In this document: piece after piece, positions 681-33,930 of the stretch
Layout of the letters: the number at the start of each line of letters is the position of its first letter
Numbering within the stretch: the first letter of the stretch is position 1
Origin: Paracoccaceae bacterium
GTDB lineage: Bacteria > Pseudomonadota > Alphaproteobacteria > Rhodobacterales > Rhodobacteraceae
NCBI GenBank assembly: GCA_026982255.1
Contig: JALSHL010000010.1
Coordinates: forward strand, 1 to 33,930
Direction: 5' to 3'
Length of the DNA stretch: 33,930 bases
Position numbers and translations under genes: made by a program
The notes under the pieces: model-generated
Databases searched by the model: none
What the model saw: only the letters and a program-made list of their open reading frames with translations
Told to the model about the DNA's origin: nothing

Positions 681-3553
<2,873 letters not shown>

Positions 3554-3614
3554 TTACCGGCTTCCTTTTTATTGGTTGCACCCGCTTCTCGATTGTTACT
3601 ATTTCGTAAAAAGG

Positions 3615-3629
3615 TTAACCGAAGGTTAC
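3615..3629. promoter_or_regulatory. CtrA-like site, 7/8 match (TTAA-CCGAAGG-TTAC) upstream of ctrA
   Basis: Direct read; consensus TTAA-N7-TTAA; about 62-76 nt upstream of the ctrA start. Confidence 0.45.
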
Positions 3630-12643: not shown

Positions 12644-14632
12644 CTACTCCGCCGGCACGGCTTCGACCGGTTTTCCTGCCGGTTTGTTGGCCGGTGCCGC
12701 AACACGATACCGCCGGTCCGACAGGCTCAGCAAACCACCGACGGCCATCACCAGCAGGCCGATCCACAGCCATGCGGTAAACGGCTTGATATAGCTGCGC
12801 ACGGCCCAGCTGCCGTCATCCTGTTTGTCACCGACCACGATGTAGAGGTCACGCAGCAGATTCTGCTGGATGCCGGCCTCGGTCGTCGGCATGCCCTCGA
12901 CCGGATATACCCGTTTTTCCGGCGACAGGCTGGCCACCAGTTTACCGTCCTCGAAAACGCTGAAATGCCCCCGCTGCGCGATATAGTTCGGCCCCTGGAC
13001 GGTTTCGACCCCGTCGAACAGCACCTCGTATTTCCCGAGGGGATAACGTTCGCCGGGATTGACCGTGCGGATATCCTCGGTTTCCAGTGCTGTCAGAACC
13101 GTGATTGCAAAGATCACGATCCCCAGACCGAAATGCGATACCATCTTCCCCCATTCGGAACGGGGGAAATTGCGGAAACGGCGCAGGCTCTCGCCAAGCG
13201 ACGCCCGCCCGAGCTTCGCCCGATAGGAAATATCGACAACTGCCCCGGCCGCGACCCAGAAGGCCAGCGCCAGACCGATGGGGGCCAGCATGCCCTCGCC
13301 GGTTTGCAGCGTCCACACCAGCGCCAGCAATACCACGGTCAGAATGACGACCCCTTGCAAGGGTTTCATGGTTTTTTTCAGCTTGCCCCGTTTCCACGGC
13401 ACCATCGAGCCGATCGGCAGCAGAATCGCCAGCAACACCATAAAGGGTGTGAAAGCCATGTCGAAGAACGGCGCGCCGACCGAAACCTTGGCGCCGGTAA
13501 AGGCCTCGGCGATCAACGGCCAGATTGTGCCCACAAAGACAACCGCGGCCGAGACCGCCAGCAACAGATTGTTCAGCACCAGCGCGCTTTCGCGACTGAC
13601 GACCCCGAACACCGCACTCGTTTTCAGCGTCGAGGCCCGAATCGCGAACAACGTCAGCGCCCCGCCGATAGTGATCAGGATAATTCCGAACACGAACATC
13701 CCGCGGGTCGGGTCGGTTGCAAAAGCATGCACCGAGGTCAGAACGCCGGACCGCACAATGAACGTCCCGATCAGGCTGAAGGAAAACGCCAGGATCGCCA
13801 GCAGGATGGTCCAGCTTTTGAGCGCGTTGCGTTTTTCGACCACAATCGCCGAATGCAACAGCGCCGTTGCCACCAGCCACGGCATGAAGCTGGAGTTTTC
13901 AACCGGATCCCAGAACCACCAGCCACCCCAGCCAAGCTCGTAGTAGGCCCACCAGCTGCCCAGACCGATTCCGATGGTCAGGAAAACCCAGGCGGCCAGC
14001 GTCCACGGACGCACCCAGCGGGCCCAGGCCGCGTCGACCTTGCCTTCCAGCAAGGCGGCAATGGCGAAGCTGAACGAAACCGAAAGCCCCACATAACCGA
14101 GGTAAAGGAACGGCGGATGGAACGCCAGGCCGAGATCCTGCAACAGCGGGTTCAACCCTTCACCGTCAATCGGCGGACGTGCCAGACGCAGGAACGGGTT
14201 GGAGGTGAACAGGATAAACGACAGGAACGAAACGCTGATCATTGCCTGAATGGACAACACGCGCGCCTTCAGGCTGGGCGGCAACCCCTTGCCGAACACA
14301 GCCACCATCGCCCCGAAAATCGCCAGAATGGTATTCCACATCAGCAGCGATCCCTCGTGATTCGCCCAGACACCGGTGATCTTGTAGATCATCGGCTTCG
14401 ACGAATGGGAATTGGCAGCAACGAGGCGAACCGAGAAGTCCGACGTGACAAACGCATACATCAACGCCGCGAAAGACAGCCCGACCAGCACCACCTGCAC
14501 CTGCGAGGCCGGCGTCCCGAACCGCATCCAGTCGGCCCAGCCCTTCTGTGCCCCGATCATGGGCACGATGGCCTGCAAAATCGCCACGCCGAAGGCCAGC
14601 ACGAGCGCGAAATGTCCGAGTTCAACAATCAT
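12644..14632 (-). CDS. ccmF: Heme lyase CcmF/NrfE family subunit
   Basis: Multi-TM; WAYYELGWGGWWFWDPVENSSFMPWLVATALLHS WWD motif; GVWANHEGSLLMW. Confidence 0.97.
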   Translation of the reverse strand: MIVELGHFALVLAFGVAILQAIVPMIGAQKGWADWMRFGTPASQVQVVLVGLSFAALMYAFVTSDFSVRLVAANSHSSKPMIYKITGVWANHEGSLLMWNTILAIFGAMVAVFGKGLPPSLKARVLSIQAMISVSFLSFILFTSNPFLRLARPPIDGEGLNPLLQDLGLAFHPPFLYLGYVGLSVSFSFAIAALLEGKVDAAWARWVRPWTLAAWVFLTIGIGLGSWWAYYELGWGGWWFWDPVENSSFMPWLVATALLHSAIVVEKRNALKSWTILLAILAFSFSLIGTFIVRSGVLTSVHAFATDPTRGMFVFGIILITIGGALTLFAIRASTLKTSAVFGVVSRESALVLNNLLLAVSAAVVFVGTIWPLIAEAFTGAKVSVGAPFFDMAFTPFMVLLAILLPIGSMVPWKRGKLKKTMKPLQGVVILTVVLLALVWTLQTGEGMLAPIGLALAFWVAAGAVVDISYRAKLGRASLGESLRRFRNFPRSEWGKMVSHFGLGIVIFAITVLTALETEDIRTVNPGERYPLGKYEVLFDGVETVQGPNYIAQRGHFSVFEDGKLVASLSPEKRVYPVEGMPTTEAGIQQNLLRDLYIVVGDKQDDGSWAVRSYIKPFTAWLWIGLLVMAVGGLLSLSDRRYRVAAPANKPAGKPVEAVPAE

Positions 14633-14750
14633 GTTACGAATCCCCTGTTATTCGACGGCGATCATACGCAGGGCCAAACCCATATTCAAATTGCATTTAC
14701 GTGATCGGCGCATTTGCCGCCCCTGCAGAATTCAGCGGGGCGACACACTG

Positions 14751-15266
14751 CTATTTTCTCATCCGCAGCGCGCGCCATTCCTCAAGCGCCGGATTTCCGT
14801 CAGCACGGAGCGGCGCTTCCCCCGCATTTTTCCCGGACAGGACCGTCGCCGGAAGCACAGGCGCGGCGCGACCTTCGCGGGCATAGTGCATTTCCCGTGC
14901 GCCGAAATAGAACGACACAACAGCCCCCAACAACCACCAGAGCGGCTCCGGCACATGCGCCAGCCCCTGCATCCGGCCGGCAAAGGCTTGCGGGTCAATC
15001 ATGGCAAAGACAAACAACCCCACCGTTCCCAATGCCATCACCGGTCGGGGCAAACGGTTCAATCCGTTGATCAGACTGTCGAACCACCCGCTTCCGGCCC
15101 GCCCGAATTCCGCGCTGTATTGCGCCAGAGAAGCCATCGACTGCGCCCGTGCGGCCAGTTCCGCCTTGGTTTTGTTGACGGTAAACACCTCGGCCACCCC
15201 CTCGACCGCGCCCCCCACATCGCGCGCCGCCGATCCGATGCCGAATATCCGTTCGATCACCCCCAT
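14751..15266 (-). CDS. Holin family protein, GTA_holin_3TM type
   Basis: MGVIERIFGIGSAARDVGGAVEGVAEVFTVNKTKAELAARAQSMASLAQYSAEF...SWFDSLINGLNRLPRPVMALGTVGLFVFAMIDP...LWWLLGAVVSFYFGAREMHY; overlaps the endolysin 3' end by 10 nt; GGAGGG Shine-Dalgarno within endolysin codons. Confidence 0.85.
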   Translation of the reverse strand: MGVIERIFGIGSAARDVGGAVEGVAEVFTVNKTKAELAARAQSMASLAQYSAEFGRAGSGWFDSLINGLNRLPRPVMALGTVGLFVFAMIDPQAFAGRMQGLAHVPEPLWWLLGAVVSFYFGAREMHYAREGRAAPVLPATVLSGKNAGEAPLRADGNPALEEWRALRMRK

Positions 15267-15868
15267 GCCGCAACCCTCCGCGCATGTTCTGCATCGCTCA
15301 GGTGAAAACGGGCCGAGATGAACTCCTCCGCCCGCGCAATCCAGCCCCCCTTGCCTCCGTCACGCCGCCGCGCGTATTTGCGCGAGGACGGCCGGCGGTC
15401 CGCCAGCCGGTAGTAGTAATTCCTCCGCTCGATCCCGTATGCATCCGCCAGATGCTCCGGCGCCACCCCGAGCGCCGCTTCCGCTGCACCGAAAGTCTGC
15501 GGCCCCAGCACGCCGTCCACCGCCACCGGAAACCCGAATTCCCCGAGCAACCGTTGCAAAATCGTGACCGCCGCGCTTCCGGCGTTCACATACATATCGA
15601 AAACCGTTGCCTGCAAAGCCTCGGGCAGCCGGTCGATTCCGGGCTTGTGAAAATACTCCTTTTTATAGATTTCCACCGCTTGCGCCCGTGTCAGGGCCCG
15701 CACATCGGCCACATCAACCGCACCGTTTTCGTCCAGATCAAGCCCCAGGCGCCGCATGGTGCCGAGCGTCACCCCGAAATTCGTTGCCCCGCCCGGATCC
15801 TCGGGGTCATTCACAAATCCCCCCTCGCGCCGCAAAATACCGACCACGATGTCATCAACAGATGCCAT
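15257..15868 (-). CDS. GH108 N-acetylmuramidase (holin-associated endolysin) with PG_binding_3-like C-terminal domain
   Basis: ILRREGGFVNDPEDPGGATNFGVTLGTMRRLG (GH108 EGG...DPGGATN.G motif), YKKEYFHKPGIDRLPEALQATVFDMYVNAG, GFPVAVDGVLGPQTFGAAEAA, RRNYYYRLADRRPSSRKYARG-like tail. Confidence 0.93.
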   Translation of the reverse strand: MASVDDIVVGILRREGGFVNDPEDPGGATNFGVTLGTMRRLGLDLDENGAVDVADVRALTRAQAVEIYKKEYFHKPGIDRLPEALQATVFDMYVNAGSAAVTILQRLLGEFGFPVAVDGVLGPQTFGAAEAALGVAPEHLADAYGIERRNYYYRLADRRPSSRKYARRRDGGKGGWIARAEEFISARFHLSDAEHARRVAAWG

Positions 15869-15916
15869 AGCGTATTCTCCTGTGATTTCGTCATAAAATA
15901 CAGGAAGAATACGCTA
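15868..15916 (-). promoter_or_regulatory. Long imperfect inverted repeat; predicted mRNA hairpin over the endolysin Shine-Dalgarno and start codon
   Basis: TAGCGTATTCTCCTGT (15868-15883) versus ACAGGAAGAATACGCTA (15900-15916): 16 bp with one bulged base, plus inner ATTT/AAAT pairing, 7-nt loop. Confidence 0.8.
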
Positions 15917-15922
15917 CAATTC

Positions 15923-15937
15923 CTAAAATTCGATTAA
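15923..15937 (-). promoter_or_regulatory. CtrA-like site, 7/8 match (TTAA-TCGAATT-TTAG on minus strand)
   Basis: Direct read, between ccmE stop and the endolysin hairpin. Confidence 0.4.
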
Positions 15938-15943
15938 AACCGG

Positions 15944-16399
15944 TCAGCTTTCCGGTGCGGCATTCGGATCCACATATATGCCCTGTTCCTTGAGGGCGTC
16001 CACGACCTCTTTCGGCATATAATCCTCGTCATGCTTGGCCAGAACCTCGCTGGCGACGAATACCCCGTTCTCCAGCTTGCCGGTGGCTACCATGCCCTGC
16101 CCCTCGCCGAACAGATCCGGCAGGATACCCTTGAAGGTCACGGGAATGGTTTCATTGCCATCGGTCACACTGAAACGGACCGTCTCGGATTCCCCGCGCA
16201 CGACCGAGCCCTCTTCGACCAGACCGCCAATACGGAACCTCTCCCTCGGGGAAGGCGGATCCTCGACGACCTGCGTCGGCGAACGGAAAAACTCGATCCC
16301 GTCTTTCATTGCATAGCCGATAATTACGCTGGCCGAGACCAGTAGCACCAGCCCGATAAGAACGAGCCGTATACGCCGTTTTTTCTTGAGTCCTGCCAT
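15944..16399 (-). CDS. ccmE: Cytochrome c maturation protein CcmE (heme chaperone)
   Basis: MAGLKKKRRIRLVLIGLVLLVSASVIIGYAMKDGIEFFRSP...RFRIGGLVEEGSVVR...VLAKHDEDYMPKEV with heme-binding HDExY motif. Confidence 0.97.
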   Translation of the reverse strand: MAGLKKKRRIRLVLIGLVLLVSASVIIGYAMKDGIEFFRSPTQVVEDPPSPRERFRIGGLVEEGSVVRGESETVRFSVTDGNETIPVTFKGILPDLFGEGQGMVATGKLENGVFVASEVLAKHDEDYMPKEVVDALKEQGIYVDPNAAPES

Positions 16400-16422
16400 G
16401 GGTCCCCTCCTGTTAGCCCGCT

Positions 16423-17286
16423 TTATATAGGCTTTATATCCGCATTGTTAAGGGGCCGAAGCGCCGCACGTCGCGAAATAAGTTCCGCATTCAGCTCCGC
16501 CCCGAAAATCACCGCCACACCGGACAGATAGAAAAACACCAGCGTGATAATCACCCCCGCCAGTGTGCCATAGGTAATCGCATAGGTCGGTGTCAGCGTC
16601 AGGTAATAGGAAAACACCATCGCCCCCGCAACCCAGCTCGTTACCGTCACCAGCACCCCGGGCCAGAGCCGCAGCCCCTTCATCCGGTGGCTCGGCAAAA
16701 ACCGGTGCATGAGCAGCAGGAACAGCACAAACACCAGAACTCCCAGAACGAAGCTCACCGCCACCGCGGCGCCGCTCACCCGGATATGGGACCAGTTTTC
16801 CGCAATCCGCAGCAAAATCGGCGCGAAAATGATCGAAACACCCAAAACCGCCGCAACCACCGCCCCCAGAAACACAAAGGCAATCGCCCGCAGTCGCCGC
16901 GCGATATAGTGCCGCTTGCCTTCGCCGCCATAAGCACGGTCAAACGCCACCCGGAATGCCTCGAAGGCCGAGGACGCCAGCCAGATCGCCCCTATGATCG
17001 AGACAGTCAGATACCGGCCGCCGCGTTCCCGCATCACCTCGCGCAGCACAGGCTCCAAAGTTTCGGCAATGTTTTCAGGTGCATAGCGAAACAACGCCTC
17101 GATCGCCTCGCCGCCATATTGCCGCCCCAGCACCAGACCGGTCAGCGAAGTGGCAAAAATCAGGAAGGGAAAAACCGACAGCAACCCCGAAAAGGCGATA
17201 TAGCCTGCCATGGCAATGCCGTCGTCCGCGACAAACCGGCGATAGCTGGCCAGAAGAACCGAAAATATCGCCCGAAGCCGGTTCAC
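16423..17286 (-). CDS. YihY/BrkB family inner membrane protein
   Basis: [29 protein letters not shown], multi-[37 protein letters not shown]. Confidence 0.93.
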
Positions 17287-31046: not shown

Positions 31047-31637
31047 ATGCTGATCTCGATCGAGAAGAAAATCGCCTTTCTGGCCATGACCAAAGCCGCC
31101 TCTACCAGTATCGAGATGGCACTCGCCCCCCGTTGCGACATCGCCTACTATGGCAATCCGCGGGTGAAGCACATTTCCTACCGTCGCTACAGCCGTTTTG
31201 TCGCGCCCTATCTGGCCAGTCTGGGCTATAACGATATCGAGACCTGCTGCCTGTTCCGCGAGCCGGTCGACTGGCTGTTCAGCTGGTATCGCTATCGCTC
31301 GCGGCCGGAAATCGCGGGCAGGCCACAGAGCACCGCCGGGTTGAGTTTCGACGAGTTTGCCGGTCTCTATCTGGCCGGAAGTCCCACGACGAAGGGCGTC
31401 GGGCGGCCATCGAAATTTGTCGCCGACAAGGACGGAACACCCTCGGTGACCCATATTTTCAAATACGACAACCTGCCCGCATTCCGGAAATTCATCGAAA
31501 ACCGCTTCGGCGAACCGTTGCACTTCGACCGGCTCAACGAATCTCCGGCAGGGGAATTCACCCTTTCGCCGGAAACCGGGGCGCGCCTGACGGAGTTTTT
31601 CGCGCCGGAATACGAAATCTACGAATCCGCGCGTTAG
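31047..31637 (+). CDS. Sulfotransferase family-like protein
   Basis: MLISIEKKIAFLAMTKAASTSIEMALAP (PAPS-loop-like K.ASTSI), CCLFREPVDWLFSWYRYRSR (FRxPxxWxxSWYR, 3'-phosphate-binding-like). Confidence 0.72.
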   Translation: MLISIEKKIAFLAMTKAASTSIEMALAPRCDIAYYGNPRVKHISYRRYSRFVAPYLASLGYNDIETCCLFREPVDWLFSWYRYRSRPEIAGRPQSTAGLSFDEFAGLYLAGSPTTKGVGRPSKFVADKDGTPSVTHIFKYDNLPAFRKFIENRFGEPLHFDRLNESPAGEFTLSPETGARLTEFFAPEYEIYESAR

Positions 31638-33346
31638 GCGTCAATCTGCTCCTTCACTTTCTGCGTCAATTCCACCAGCGAGAACGGCTTGGCCAGAAAC
31701 GCCGCATGCGGAATATCCGGTTTCCCGTTCCTGAACGCATCCTCGGCGTAACCCGATACAAACACCACCTTGGTGTCCGGCGCTTCCCGCATCGCCTCGC
31801 GCACCCATGTCGGACCGTCCTTACCGGGCATCACAACGTCGGAAACGTAAACATCGAACCGCACCCCCTTGTCGGACAGAATCTCCAGCGCCTCCTCGCC
31901 CGAAGCGGCCTCGGTCACTGTATACCCCCGCAGCTTCAGCGCCCGCGCCGCAAAGGAGCGCACCGGTGCCTCGTCCTCTACCAGCAACACCCGCCCGCGC
32001 CCCGTCAGATCGGTTACGGCCGGCGCCTGTGGCGCCTCCTCAGCCTCGTCCGGTTCCTCGTTGACCGGCAGGTAGATGGAAAAACAGGTGCCCGCCCCAA
32101 CATCACTATCGACAAAAACGAAACCGCCGGTCTGCTTGACAATACCGTAGACGGTCGAGAGGCCCAGCCCCGTGCCCTCCCCCGGCTTCTTGGTGGTAAA
32201 GAACGGTTCGAAAATCTTGGAAATCTTGTCCGGCGCGATCCCCGTGCCGGTATCGCGGACCTCCACCACCACATAGTCGCCCGGATACACAATGGCACGA
32301 TCACGGCGCAATTCCTGCTCCAGCGTTACATTCCGCGTGCGGATGACCACCGTGCCCCCCCCGGCCATGGCATCGCGAGCATTGACCACCAGATTCATGA
32401 TAACCTGCTCGAACTGCCGTTCGTCCACCCGCACCGGTTTCAGGTCGCGCCCGTGATCCGTGTGTAGCGAGACCTTTTCCCCAAGCAAACGGTTCAGAAG
32501 ATGCGAAAGGTCCGAGAGCGTATCATCCAGCTTCAGGGATTTCGGCTGCAGGGTCTGTTTTCGCGAAAACGCCAGCAACTGGCGCACCAGCGCCGCTGCA
32601 CGGTTGGCGTTCTGGCGGATCTGGTCGAGGTCGGCAAAATCGGGACTGCGCCGGTCACATCGTTGCAACAACAGATCGGCATGCCCCGAAATCGCGGTCA
32701 GGATATTGTTGAAATCATGTGCCACACCGCCCGCAAGCTGTCCGACCGCCTGCATTTTCTGGCTTTGCACAAATTGCGCCTCCAGCGTTTTGAATTCTGT
32801 CGCATCGCTCAGCGTGGCCAGAATGGAAACCGCACCGTTCCGCATCATCCGGGTCATGGAGAGTTGCAGGAACACCTCCTGCCCGTCCTTGTAGTGCCGG
32901 GCCATTTCGGGCCGCCCCAGCCCGAAACCCTTGAGCGTATCCGCCATGCGGTCGCTGACGGAGCGGCCCATGCCTTCGACAAGGTCGCACAGGTTGCTTT
33001 CCGACACATCGCCGGCACCCAGCAAGGCCAGCGCTGCACCATTGGCCCGCCGGATTGCGCCATCTGGGGCCGCCTCGATCATCGGAACGGGAAGGTCATC
33101 GAACAGGTCCGGCGGGGGGGGCACATTCCGTTGTGGCCATTGCAGCCGCAAACCGGTCAGCAACAGATAGTAGACCGCCGAACCGCCGGCCAGCGACAGC
33201 ACGATAATGCCGAGCGTATATTGTGTGGCCAGAGACGCTGCCAGGCCGGCAAAAATCGCCAGCGTAACTATACCGACAACAACGAACAGGCCAAACCCGT
33301 CGCCCGCCCCATCACCGGCAGTTCTGTCCGATACAGTATCCGTCAT
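31634..33346 (-). CDS. cckA: Hybrid sensor histidine kinase CckA (PAS-HisKA-HATPase-REC)
   Basis: [35 protein letters not shown]-box; [54 protein letters not shown]-terminal receiver [23 protein letters not shown]...[14 protein letters not shown]; two N-terminal TM helices; start ATG 33346. Confidence 0.92.
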
Positions 33347-33403
33347 GCAGCCCGTCCTCCGCCGGTCAGTTACCGGCCCGGACCCCACACTTCCCGCCAA
33401 AAG

Positions 33404-33418
33404 TTAATATATCATTTA
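33404..33418. promoter_or_regulatory. CtrA-like site, 7/8 match (TTAA-TATATCA-TTTA) upstream of cckA
   Basis: Direct read in moaB-cckA intergenic region. Confidence 0.35.
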
Positions 33419-33435
33419 CAATCTTAAGTTGTAAA
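33415..33435. repeat. Inverted repeat TTTACAA-TCTTAAG-TTGTAAA
   Basis: 7-bp perfect arms between moaB stop and cckA start. Confidence 0.7.
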
Positions 33436-33444
33436 GCGGGATAT

Positions 33445-33930
33445 CTATTTACGGCGTTTGTGTTCCTCGAGTCGCGGCATGATCTCGACGAAGTTGCACG
33501 GCATGTGGCGGTAATCCAGTTGGTGTTGCAAAATCCCGTCCCAGCCATCCTTGCAGGCCCCGGGCGATCCGGGCAGTGCGAAAATATAGGTGCCACCCGC
33601 AACGCCGCCGCAGGCGCGGGACTGCACCGCCGACGTGCCGATTTTCTCGACCGATATCATGGTAAACAAAGTGGAAAAGGCGTCGATCTCCTTTTCATAG
33701 ACATCGCGATGCGCCTCCACCGTCACATCGCGCCCCGTCAGGCCGGTGCCGCCGGTGGAAATGATAACATCCACCCCCGCATCGGCCACCCATTCACGCA
33801 GCTTGGCGGAAATATCGGCGCGCTCGTCGGTGACGATATCGCGCGCGGCCAGAATATGCCCTGCGGCCTCGATCCGTTTCACCAGAATGTCGCCGGAGCG
33901 GTCCTCGGCCAGCGAGCGGCTGTCGGAGAC
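33445..33930 (-). CDS. moaB: Molybdenum cofactor biosynthesis protein B (5' end off right edge)
   Basis: VSDSRSLAEDRSGDILVKRIEAAGH...VDVIISTGGTGLTGRDVTVEA...FALPGSPGACKDGWDGILQHQLD; frame stays open to the window edge. Confidence 0.93.
   Translation of the reverse strand, partial: VSDSRSLAEDRSGDILVKRIEAAGHILAARDIVTDERADISAKLREWVADAGVDVIISTGGTGLTGRDVTVEAHRDVYEKEIDAFSTLFTMISVEKIGTSAVQSRACGGVAGGTYIFALPGSPGACKDGWDGILQHQLDYRHMPCNFVEIMPRLEEHKRRK

Follow-up and report, generated by a model that had tools for sequence, protein, structure and literature searches.

A candidate CtrA-type promoter interlocked with a predicted ribosome-binding-site hairpin at the gene transfer agent lysis genes of Rhodobacteraceae

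Introduction

The closest described counterpart of the arrangement reported here is the lysozyme gene e of phage T4, whose long early RNA is locked by a hairpin over the ribosome-binding site (RBS), while a late RNA made from a promoter in the 5' strand of that hairpin is translated (PMC3014915). In R. capsulatus, expression of the endolysin of the gene transfer agent (GTA) depends on CtrA, by genetic evidence, as well as on GafA, which binds the lysis promoter (PMC6363796); putative CtrA half-sites have already been proposed in that promoter (PMC9638019). That CtrA controls the lysis genes is in itself known and is not presented here as new. CtrA also binds in vitro to the sequence TTAAC-N6-GTAAC at gafA (PMC6363796), and the D. 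shibae quorum-sensing (QS) promoters, which carry predicted CtrA sites, require CtrA (PMC4046655). The Caulobacter ctrA promoter P2 is activated through a full CtrA motif whose 5' end lies 39 nt before the transcription start, at position -39 (PMC4287350).

Here we analyzed a CtrA-like box that had been predicted in front of an endolysin gene in a stretch of Paracoccaceae DNA of 33,930 nucleotides (the window). We propose, with a probability of roughly 0.6, that this box is the degenerate version, in the window, of a CtrA-type site belonging to a GTA lysis promoter found throughout the Rhodobacteraceae, and that it cooperates with the hairpin downstream. The original prediction had taken box and hairpin as neighbours, which is what they are; their proposed joint working, our main point, was missing from it. 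In the open papers searched, we found no report of the hairpin, of the CGNRCG box described below, or of a family-wide composite promoter of fixed geometry.

Results

The endolysin and holin genes lie between cytochrome-maturation genes

Read along the minus strand, the genes follow one another as ccmE, endolysin, GTA holin, ccmF and ccmH, of which these are needed here:

15944-16399, minus strand: ccmE, upstream housekeeping gene (PF03100)
15257-15868, minus strand: GTA endolysin, GH108 (PF05838) plus PG_binding_3 (Pfam 1.7e-27 and 8.8e-21)
14751-15266, minus strand: GTA holin (GTA_holin_3TM, PF11351, 2e-27), whose first 10 nt are shared with the 3' end of the endolysin gene
12644-14632, minus strand: ccmF, downstream housekeeping gene (PF16327)

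The same genome contains a gafA homologue (DUF6456, L123) and GTA_TIM genes (PF13547 matches), which indicates that it carries GTA genes. With a GH108 gene beside a GTA_holin_3TM gene and GTA genes in the genome, the endolysin-holin pair is a GTA lysis module, in which the holin may be translationally coupled to the endolysin. In other Alphaproteobacteria, ccmE is reported to share translational-efficiency trends with GTA genes (PMC9765227), and this may relate to the neighbourhood of ccmE and the lysis genes.

The box is present but does not exceed chance in the window

The minus strand from 15937 to 15923 reads TTAATCGAATTTTAG (TTAA-TCGAATT-TTAG), a 7/8 match to TTAA-N7-TTAA, and the box lies in the 75-nt gap between the ccmE stop (15944) and the endolysin ATG (15868), both as predicted. 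It also adjoins the hairpin, at a separation of 7 nt in the present fold, where the hairpin starts at 15915, instead of the 6 nt that had been given. The candidate promoter fragment of the window is TTAATCGAATTTTAGG, and the features of the gap are:

15934-15937, minus strand: upstream CtrA-type half-site TTAA, perfect here, whereas most of the family has a weak, TT-rich upstream half
15923-15926, minus strand: downstream half-site TTAG(G), the positional equivalent of the family TTAAC(C), 34.5 nt before the centre of the hairpin loop
15906-15911, minus strand: minus-10-like hexamer TATTCT, beginning 15 nt past the start of the downstream half-site
15897-15901 (about 15899), minus strand: predicted local transcription start, placed from the minus-10 position, 27 nt past the half-site start
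15869-15915, minus strand: RBS-closing hairpin (5' arm 15915-15895, loop 15894-15890, 3' arm 15889-15869)
15877-15881, minus strand: endolysin Shine-Dalgarno AGGAG, within the 3' arm of the hairpin

If one mismatch is allowed, the window has 5 occurrences of TTAA-N7-TTAA where 2.0 would be expected, a count reached by 5 of 100 shuffles, and a match of at least 7/8 arises in 14% of shuffles of the 75-nt gap (P ~0.14). Scoring with a CtrA matrix, one of the checks that had been proposed for the box, did not single it out: with a matrix derived from 29 sites in the ctrA and gafA promoters of relatives, the promoter of ctrA itself ranked first in the window (21.3 bits) and the lysis box only 24th (5.9 bits). 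The second-best site (16.9 bits) was TTAATATATCATTTAC at 33404-33419 on the plus strand, between the open reading frames 31634-33400 and 33445-33882. Because of this rank and of the P value of ~0.14, a CtrA site is not claimable from the single sequence. The original prediction had warned of a chance match, and this caution holds for the window sequence alone, which has no excess over chance, but not for the comparison of orthologues, which has one.

A composite promoter precedes the endolysin across the family

Of 398 Rhodobacteraceae genomes searched, 343 have the endolysin, and in most of the loci examined the gene follows ccmE; the named loci do not include R. capsulatus. TTAAC was found on the sense strand in 42-43 of 72-73 non-redundant ccmE-endolysin gaps (expected 6.3-6.7; maximum 13 in 200 shuffles) and, among held-out loci, in 66 of 98 gaps (expected 5.1; maximum 10 in 100 shuffles), the loci being kin by descent and the counts not independent events. 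Conservation of the half-site at orthologous endolysins, a further check proposed for the box, is thus observed. The pentamer is placed mostly at -43 to -57 from the endolysin start codon, and it occurred upstream of the endolysin in 101 of 170 cases versus 8/77, 2/65 and 0/73 for the starts of ccmE, ccmF and holin in these loci. A clade of 24 sequences has an invariant TTAAC with variable flanks.

Aligning 86 loci on TTAAC yielded a composite promoter, CGNRCG-N16-TTAAC-N10-(-10). CGNRCG stands exactly 22 nt before TTAAC in 31 of the 36 loci in which that stretch lies outside ccmE, and because the box is kept there, protein coding does not explain it; it is retained both in the 3' end of ccmE and in noncoding sequence. 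The minus-10 signal, nAnnnT, is found at +15 from TTAAC in 64 of the 86 promoters and at +16 in 14 more. When a profile of the 86 promoters was applied to 84 loci that had not contributed to it, 58 reached a score of 15 or more, as did none of 420 shuffles. TTAAC as a sigma-70 -35 hexamer was excluded, since no more than 9-10 nt separate it from the minus-10 element, and a transcription start 36 nt past TTAAC was dropped in favour of 27 nt after the minus-10 element had been found.

The window allows two registers

The TTAAC of four congeners (L003-L005 and L009) aligns exactly with the TTAGG of the window, and the TATTCT hexamer follows TTAG at 15 nt and is identical, as is the box, in the sister locus L002. 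For these reasons we take TTAG (15926-15923) as the putative counterpart of the conserved half-site, TTAA (15937-15934) as its upstream half and ~15899 as the probable start. In the sister genus the box is bipartite as well, with 8/8 matches in L007 and 7/8 in L174 and an upstream half of TTAA or TAAA. The preferred register has no CGNRCG box and obtained a profile score of -10.6, whereas a second register, TTAAT at 15937 with CGCACC at 15959-15954, scored 10.5. The CGCACC box of this second register is not retained in L002, and the RNA would start inside the 5' arm with much of the hairpin left. As far as the window itself is concerned, the choice of register is where our case is weakest. In the same four congeners (L003, L004, L005, L009) a second CtrA-like box (TTTACGAAATGTTAA) occurs ~25 nt upstream of the endolysin start; it overlaps the hairpin loop and the Shine-Dalgarno sequence and could be a repressor site or a chance match.

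These uncertainties bear on the strongest of the competing explanations, namely that the window box is a chance match or a dead remnant, the family promoter having been lost here and the lysis genes being silent or using another promoter. The match frequency in gap shuffles and the low matrix rank given above speak for it, as do the change of TTAAC to TTAGG and the absence of the CG box in the preferred register. Moreover, the endolysin was not found in 4 of 12 congeners searched (G004, G006, G007, G011) and carries internal stops in one more (L027 of G005), which fits a loss of GTA lysis in parts of the genus, or incomplete assemblies. However, the position of the box, its spacing to TATTCT and its spacing to the loop all match the family, box and hexamer are the same in L002, the hairpin and the endolysin reading frame are intact, and gafA and GTA_TIM genes are retained in the genome. 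We consider a remnant or chance match unlikely, yet a serious contender.

A predicted hairpin closes the endolysin Shine-Dalgarno sequence

Returning to the interlocked promoter and hairpin that we favour, the window hairpin has a predicted energy of -22.0 kcal/mol when folded singly, and its 106-nt context gave z = -4.85 (0/200 shuffles). A hairpin ending at or next to the start codon was predicted across 170 loci, with medians of -17.1 and -16.4 kcal/mol in two sets versus -8.6 and -9.5 kcal/mol for shuffled hairpins; the procedure for finding hairpins favours self-pairing, which the shuffled controls correct in part. The Shine-Dalgarno sequence of the endolysin has a median unpaired probability of 0.16 over the 170 loci, compared with 0.46 for ccmE, 0.34 for ccmF and 0.47 for the holin. 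The sequence of the hairpin varies greatly from genus to genus, as would be expected of an RNA structure more than of a protein operator. Because the hairpins align poorly, RNAalifold on one clade of 24 sequences returned only a small consensus stem, to which covariation contributed a negligible term; in place of covariation we used z-scores from shuffles, comparison with control genes and an arm-swap test. In the arm-swap test the own 5' arm of a hairpin beats foreign arms, with a median rank of 0.012 versus 0.121 in shuffled controls, on which the bias of the test was measured.

An Rfam match to mir-308 was rejected as spurious, being sub-threshold (31.3 bits, where the gathering score is 60) and of a kind expected from many perfect hairpins, which resemble miRNA. 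In the Aliiroseovarius clade (L044, L048, L052, L056, L057, L061, L064, L086), the TTAACG region can pair with AGCGTT in the first endolysin codons, a predicted pairing that is possibly a second closing stem.

Promoter and hairpin are set at a fixed distance

The distance from TTAAC to the centre of the loop has medians of 33.5 and 32.5 nt in the two locus sets, and the DNA of the 5' hairpin arm includes the minus-10 element. With a predicted start 27 nt past TTAAC, the local RNA would begin ~6 nt before the loop centre, with a leader of ~25 nt and most of the 5' arm missing. The predicted accessibility of the Shine-Dalgarno sequence is 0.14 in read-through RNA and 0.44 in local RNA, with a rise in 77 of 87 loci; in the window, the mean unpaired probability in silico is 0.003 for read-through RNA and 0.18 for RNA from the predicted start, which makes the local RNA of the window no more than moderately open. 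With the predicted start, the family loci would fit a geometry like that of T4 gene e, and for the window this depends on which of the two registers applies.

It is rather improbable that the hairpin is instead a general damper, an RNA thermometer or an element of mRNA stability or processing, unrelated to the transcription start. Hairpins are present in some loci that have another gene than ccmE upstream (L068, L103, L197), and the start of the transcript is a predicted position, both of which favour such a role. Against it, the spacing between TTAAC and the loop is tight (30-36 nt in most loci), the minus-10 element is part of the 5' arm, and loci without ccmE as the upstream gene have weaker hairpins (n = 22; P = 0.002 by a Mann-Whitney test that did not correct for relatedness). 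Stems of about -17 kcal/mol also seem too stable for a simple thermometer.

CtrA is the probable reader of TTAAC

The window contains ctrA and its promoter, which served as a positive control:

2846-3553, minus strand: ctrA (73% identity to the query CtrA sequence, 225 residues)
3614-3629, minus strand: ctrA promoter box GTAAC-N6-TTAAC, GTAACCTTCGGTTAAC, the top CtrA-matrix match

The ctrA-promoter box was conserved in 20 of 20 Rhodobacteraceae loci tested, and ctrA probably regulates its own expression through it, as far as the sequence can tell. Further CtrA-like half-sites lie beside the box (3599-3629, minus strand). In 13 of the 20 ctrA promoters nAnnnT is found at +15 from TTAAC, as it is at the endolysin promoters. 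Given the -39 position of the 5' end of the Caulobacter P2 motif, its second half would lie at about -28, and the endolysin TTAAC lies at about -27 from the predicted start. It is mainly because the spacing equals that of the ctrA promoters and the P2 geometry that we call TTAAC a CtrA site. The direct CtrA control of the lysis genes suggested by the original prediction is consistent with the conserved half-site and the ctrA-like spacing, but is weakened for the window by its degenerate copy, TTAGG for TTAAC.

TTAAC might also be read by another factor, for instance GafA or an activator of the CGNRCG box, with an indirect role for CtrA. GafA binds the R. capsulatus lysis promoter (PMC6363796), and the CGNRCG box points to a second factor or feature. 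We nevertheless regard this reading as improbable, because half-site and minus-10 element are spaced as in the ctrA promoters, CtrA binds TTAAC-N6-GTAAC at gafA in vitro (PMC6363796), and the composite pattern in its strict and looser forms (below) also matches luxI, while D. shibae QS promoters need CtrA (PMC4046655). CGNRCG itself was considered as a possible GafA box; none was found at the equivalent position of the gafA promoters examined, nor at that of the ctrA promoters examined.

A role of the inverted repeat as an intrinsic terminator that separates ccmE from the lysis genes has next to no probability: a strong hairpin does sit between two genes, but instead of the G+C-rich stem followed by a T run that marks a terminator it has no T run, its stem runs straight into the start codon, and a scan of 14550-16500 (ccmE to ccmF) returned 0 terminator-like sites.

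The composite promoter also occurs at other genes

The strict pattern CGNACG-N16-TTAACC-N9-CAGNNT had 43 matches in 348 genomes and 0 with the reversed control; an endolysin lies downstream in 15 of the 30 matches inspected, those with sequence. Other strict matches lie upstream of orphan antitoxin genes, BrnA-like (L293, L298, L329, L330) or Phd-like (L333, L347), of luxI (L345) and of a gene for a DUF2793 plus S74 protein (L324), which may be a head-spike protein. A looser pattern adds two luxI genes and one GTA portal-like gene (L303, L313, L318). These occurrences beyond the endolysin suggest a putative regulon shared by GTA and quorum sensing.

Discussion

From the observed order of the genes we propose that transcripts serving ccmF, which is situated past the lysis genes, would run through endolysin and holin, as is to be expected of a region with no terminator-like site. 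In the read-through RNA, the predicted hairpin would pair the endolysin Shine-Dalgarno sequence and block translation, and the overlapping holin would perhaps be silenced together with the endolysin. At GTA release, CtrA, probably phosphorylated and acting with GafA, would activate the local promoter through the observed TTAAC half-site ~27 nt upstream of the start. Since this promoter lies within the 5' arm, the local mRNA would be made without most of that arm and its Shine-Dalgarno sequence would, by the predicted geometry, be more accessible. Lysis would in this way be tied to CtrA and insulated from ccm transcription, following the logic of T4 gene e.

Tentatively, and with slightly less than even confidence, we extend this proposal to the whole family: a promoter-in-hairpin switch would hold the GTA lysis genes in a housekeeping operon across the Rhodobacteraceae, and the composite promoter would mark a wider CtrA-linked GTA and QS regulon in which the CG box is read by a further factor, possibly GafA.

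Cells that make gene transfer agents pay for them with lysis. To our knowledge, the GTA field has yet to settle how the cell delays lysis until the particles have matured, and we know of no mechanism shown at the lysis genes themselves, though CtrA is required for lysis. If our proposal is true, it explains how lethal genes can sit safely within an operon needed for respiration and why it is CtrA in particular that times lysis, and it places a T4-like timing device on a chromosome, where it has been kept across many genera.

Among known systems, T4 gene e has the arrangement that we propose here, a lysis gene inside a longer transcription unit with a local promoter in the DNA of the 5' strand of the hairpin, and related phages retain it (PMC3014915). 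It differs in having a T4 late promoter, whereas the promoter described here appears to be a CtrA-type host promoter, and the module here is a chromosomal GTA lysis module in a cytochrome-maturation operon of the host. The T4-like phage genes I-TevI and mobE likewise have their RBS closed in RNA initiated upstream, and their late promoter is sited so that the local RNA cannot fold (PMC2988022); these are homing endonuclease genes and differ from the endolysin in gene function and host context. The promoters of Caulobacter ctrA (P2) and Rhodobacteraceae ctrA have the same spacing from TTAAC to the minus-10 element, and the full motif has its 5' end near -39 (PMC4287350), but most endolysin promoters differ from ctrA promoters in their weak upstream half and in their CGNRCG box. 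Finally, R. capsulatus rcc00555 and rcc00556 are likewise an endolysin and a holin with putative CtrA half-sites in their promoter (PMC6363796, PMC9638019); relative to the accounts of these genes in the open papers searched, the hairpin, the composite promoter and its conservation are described only here.
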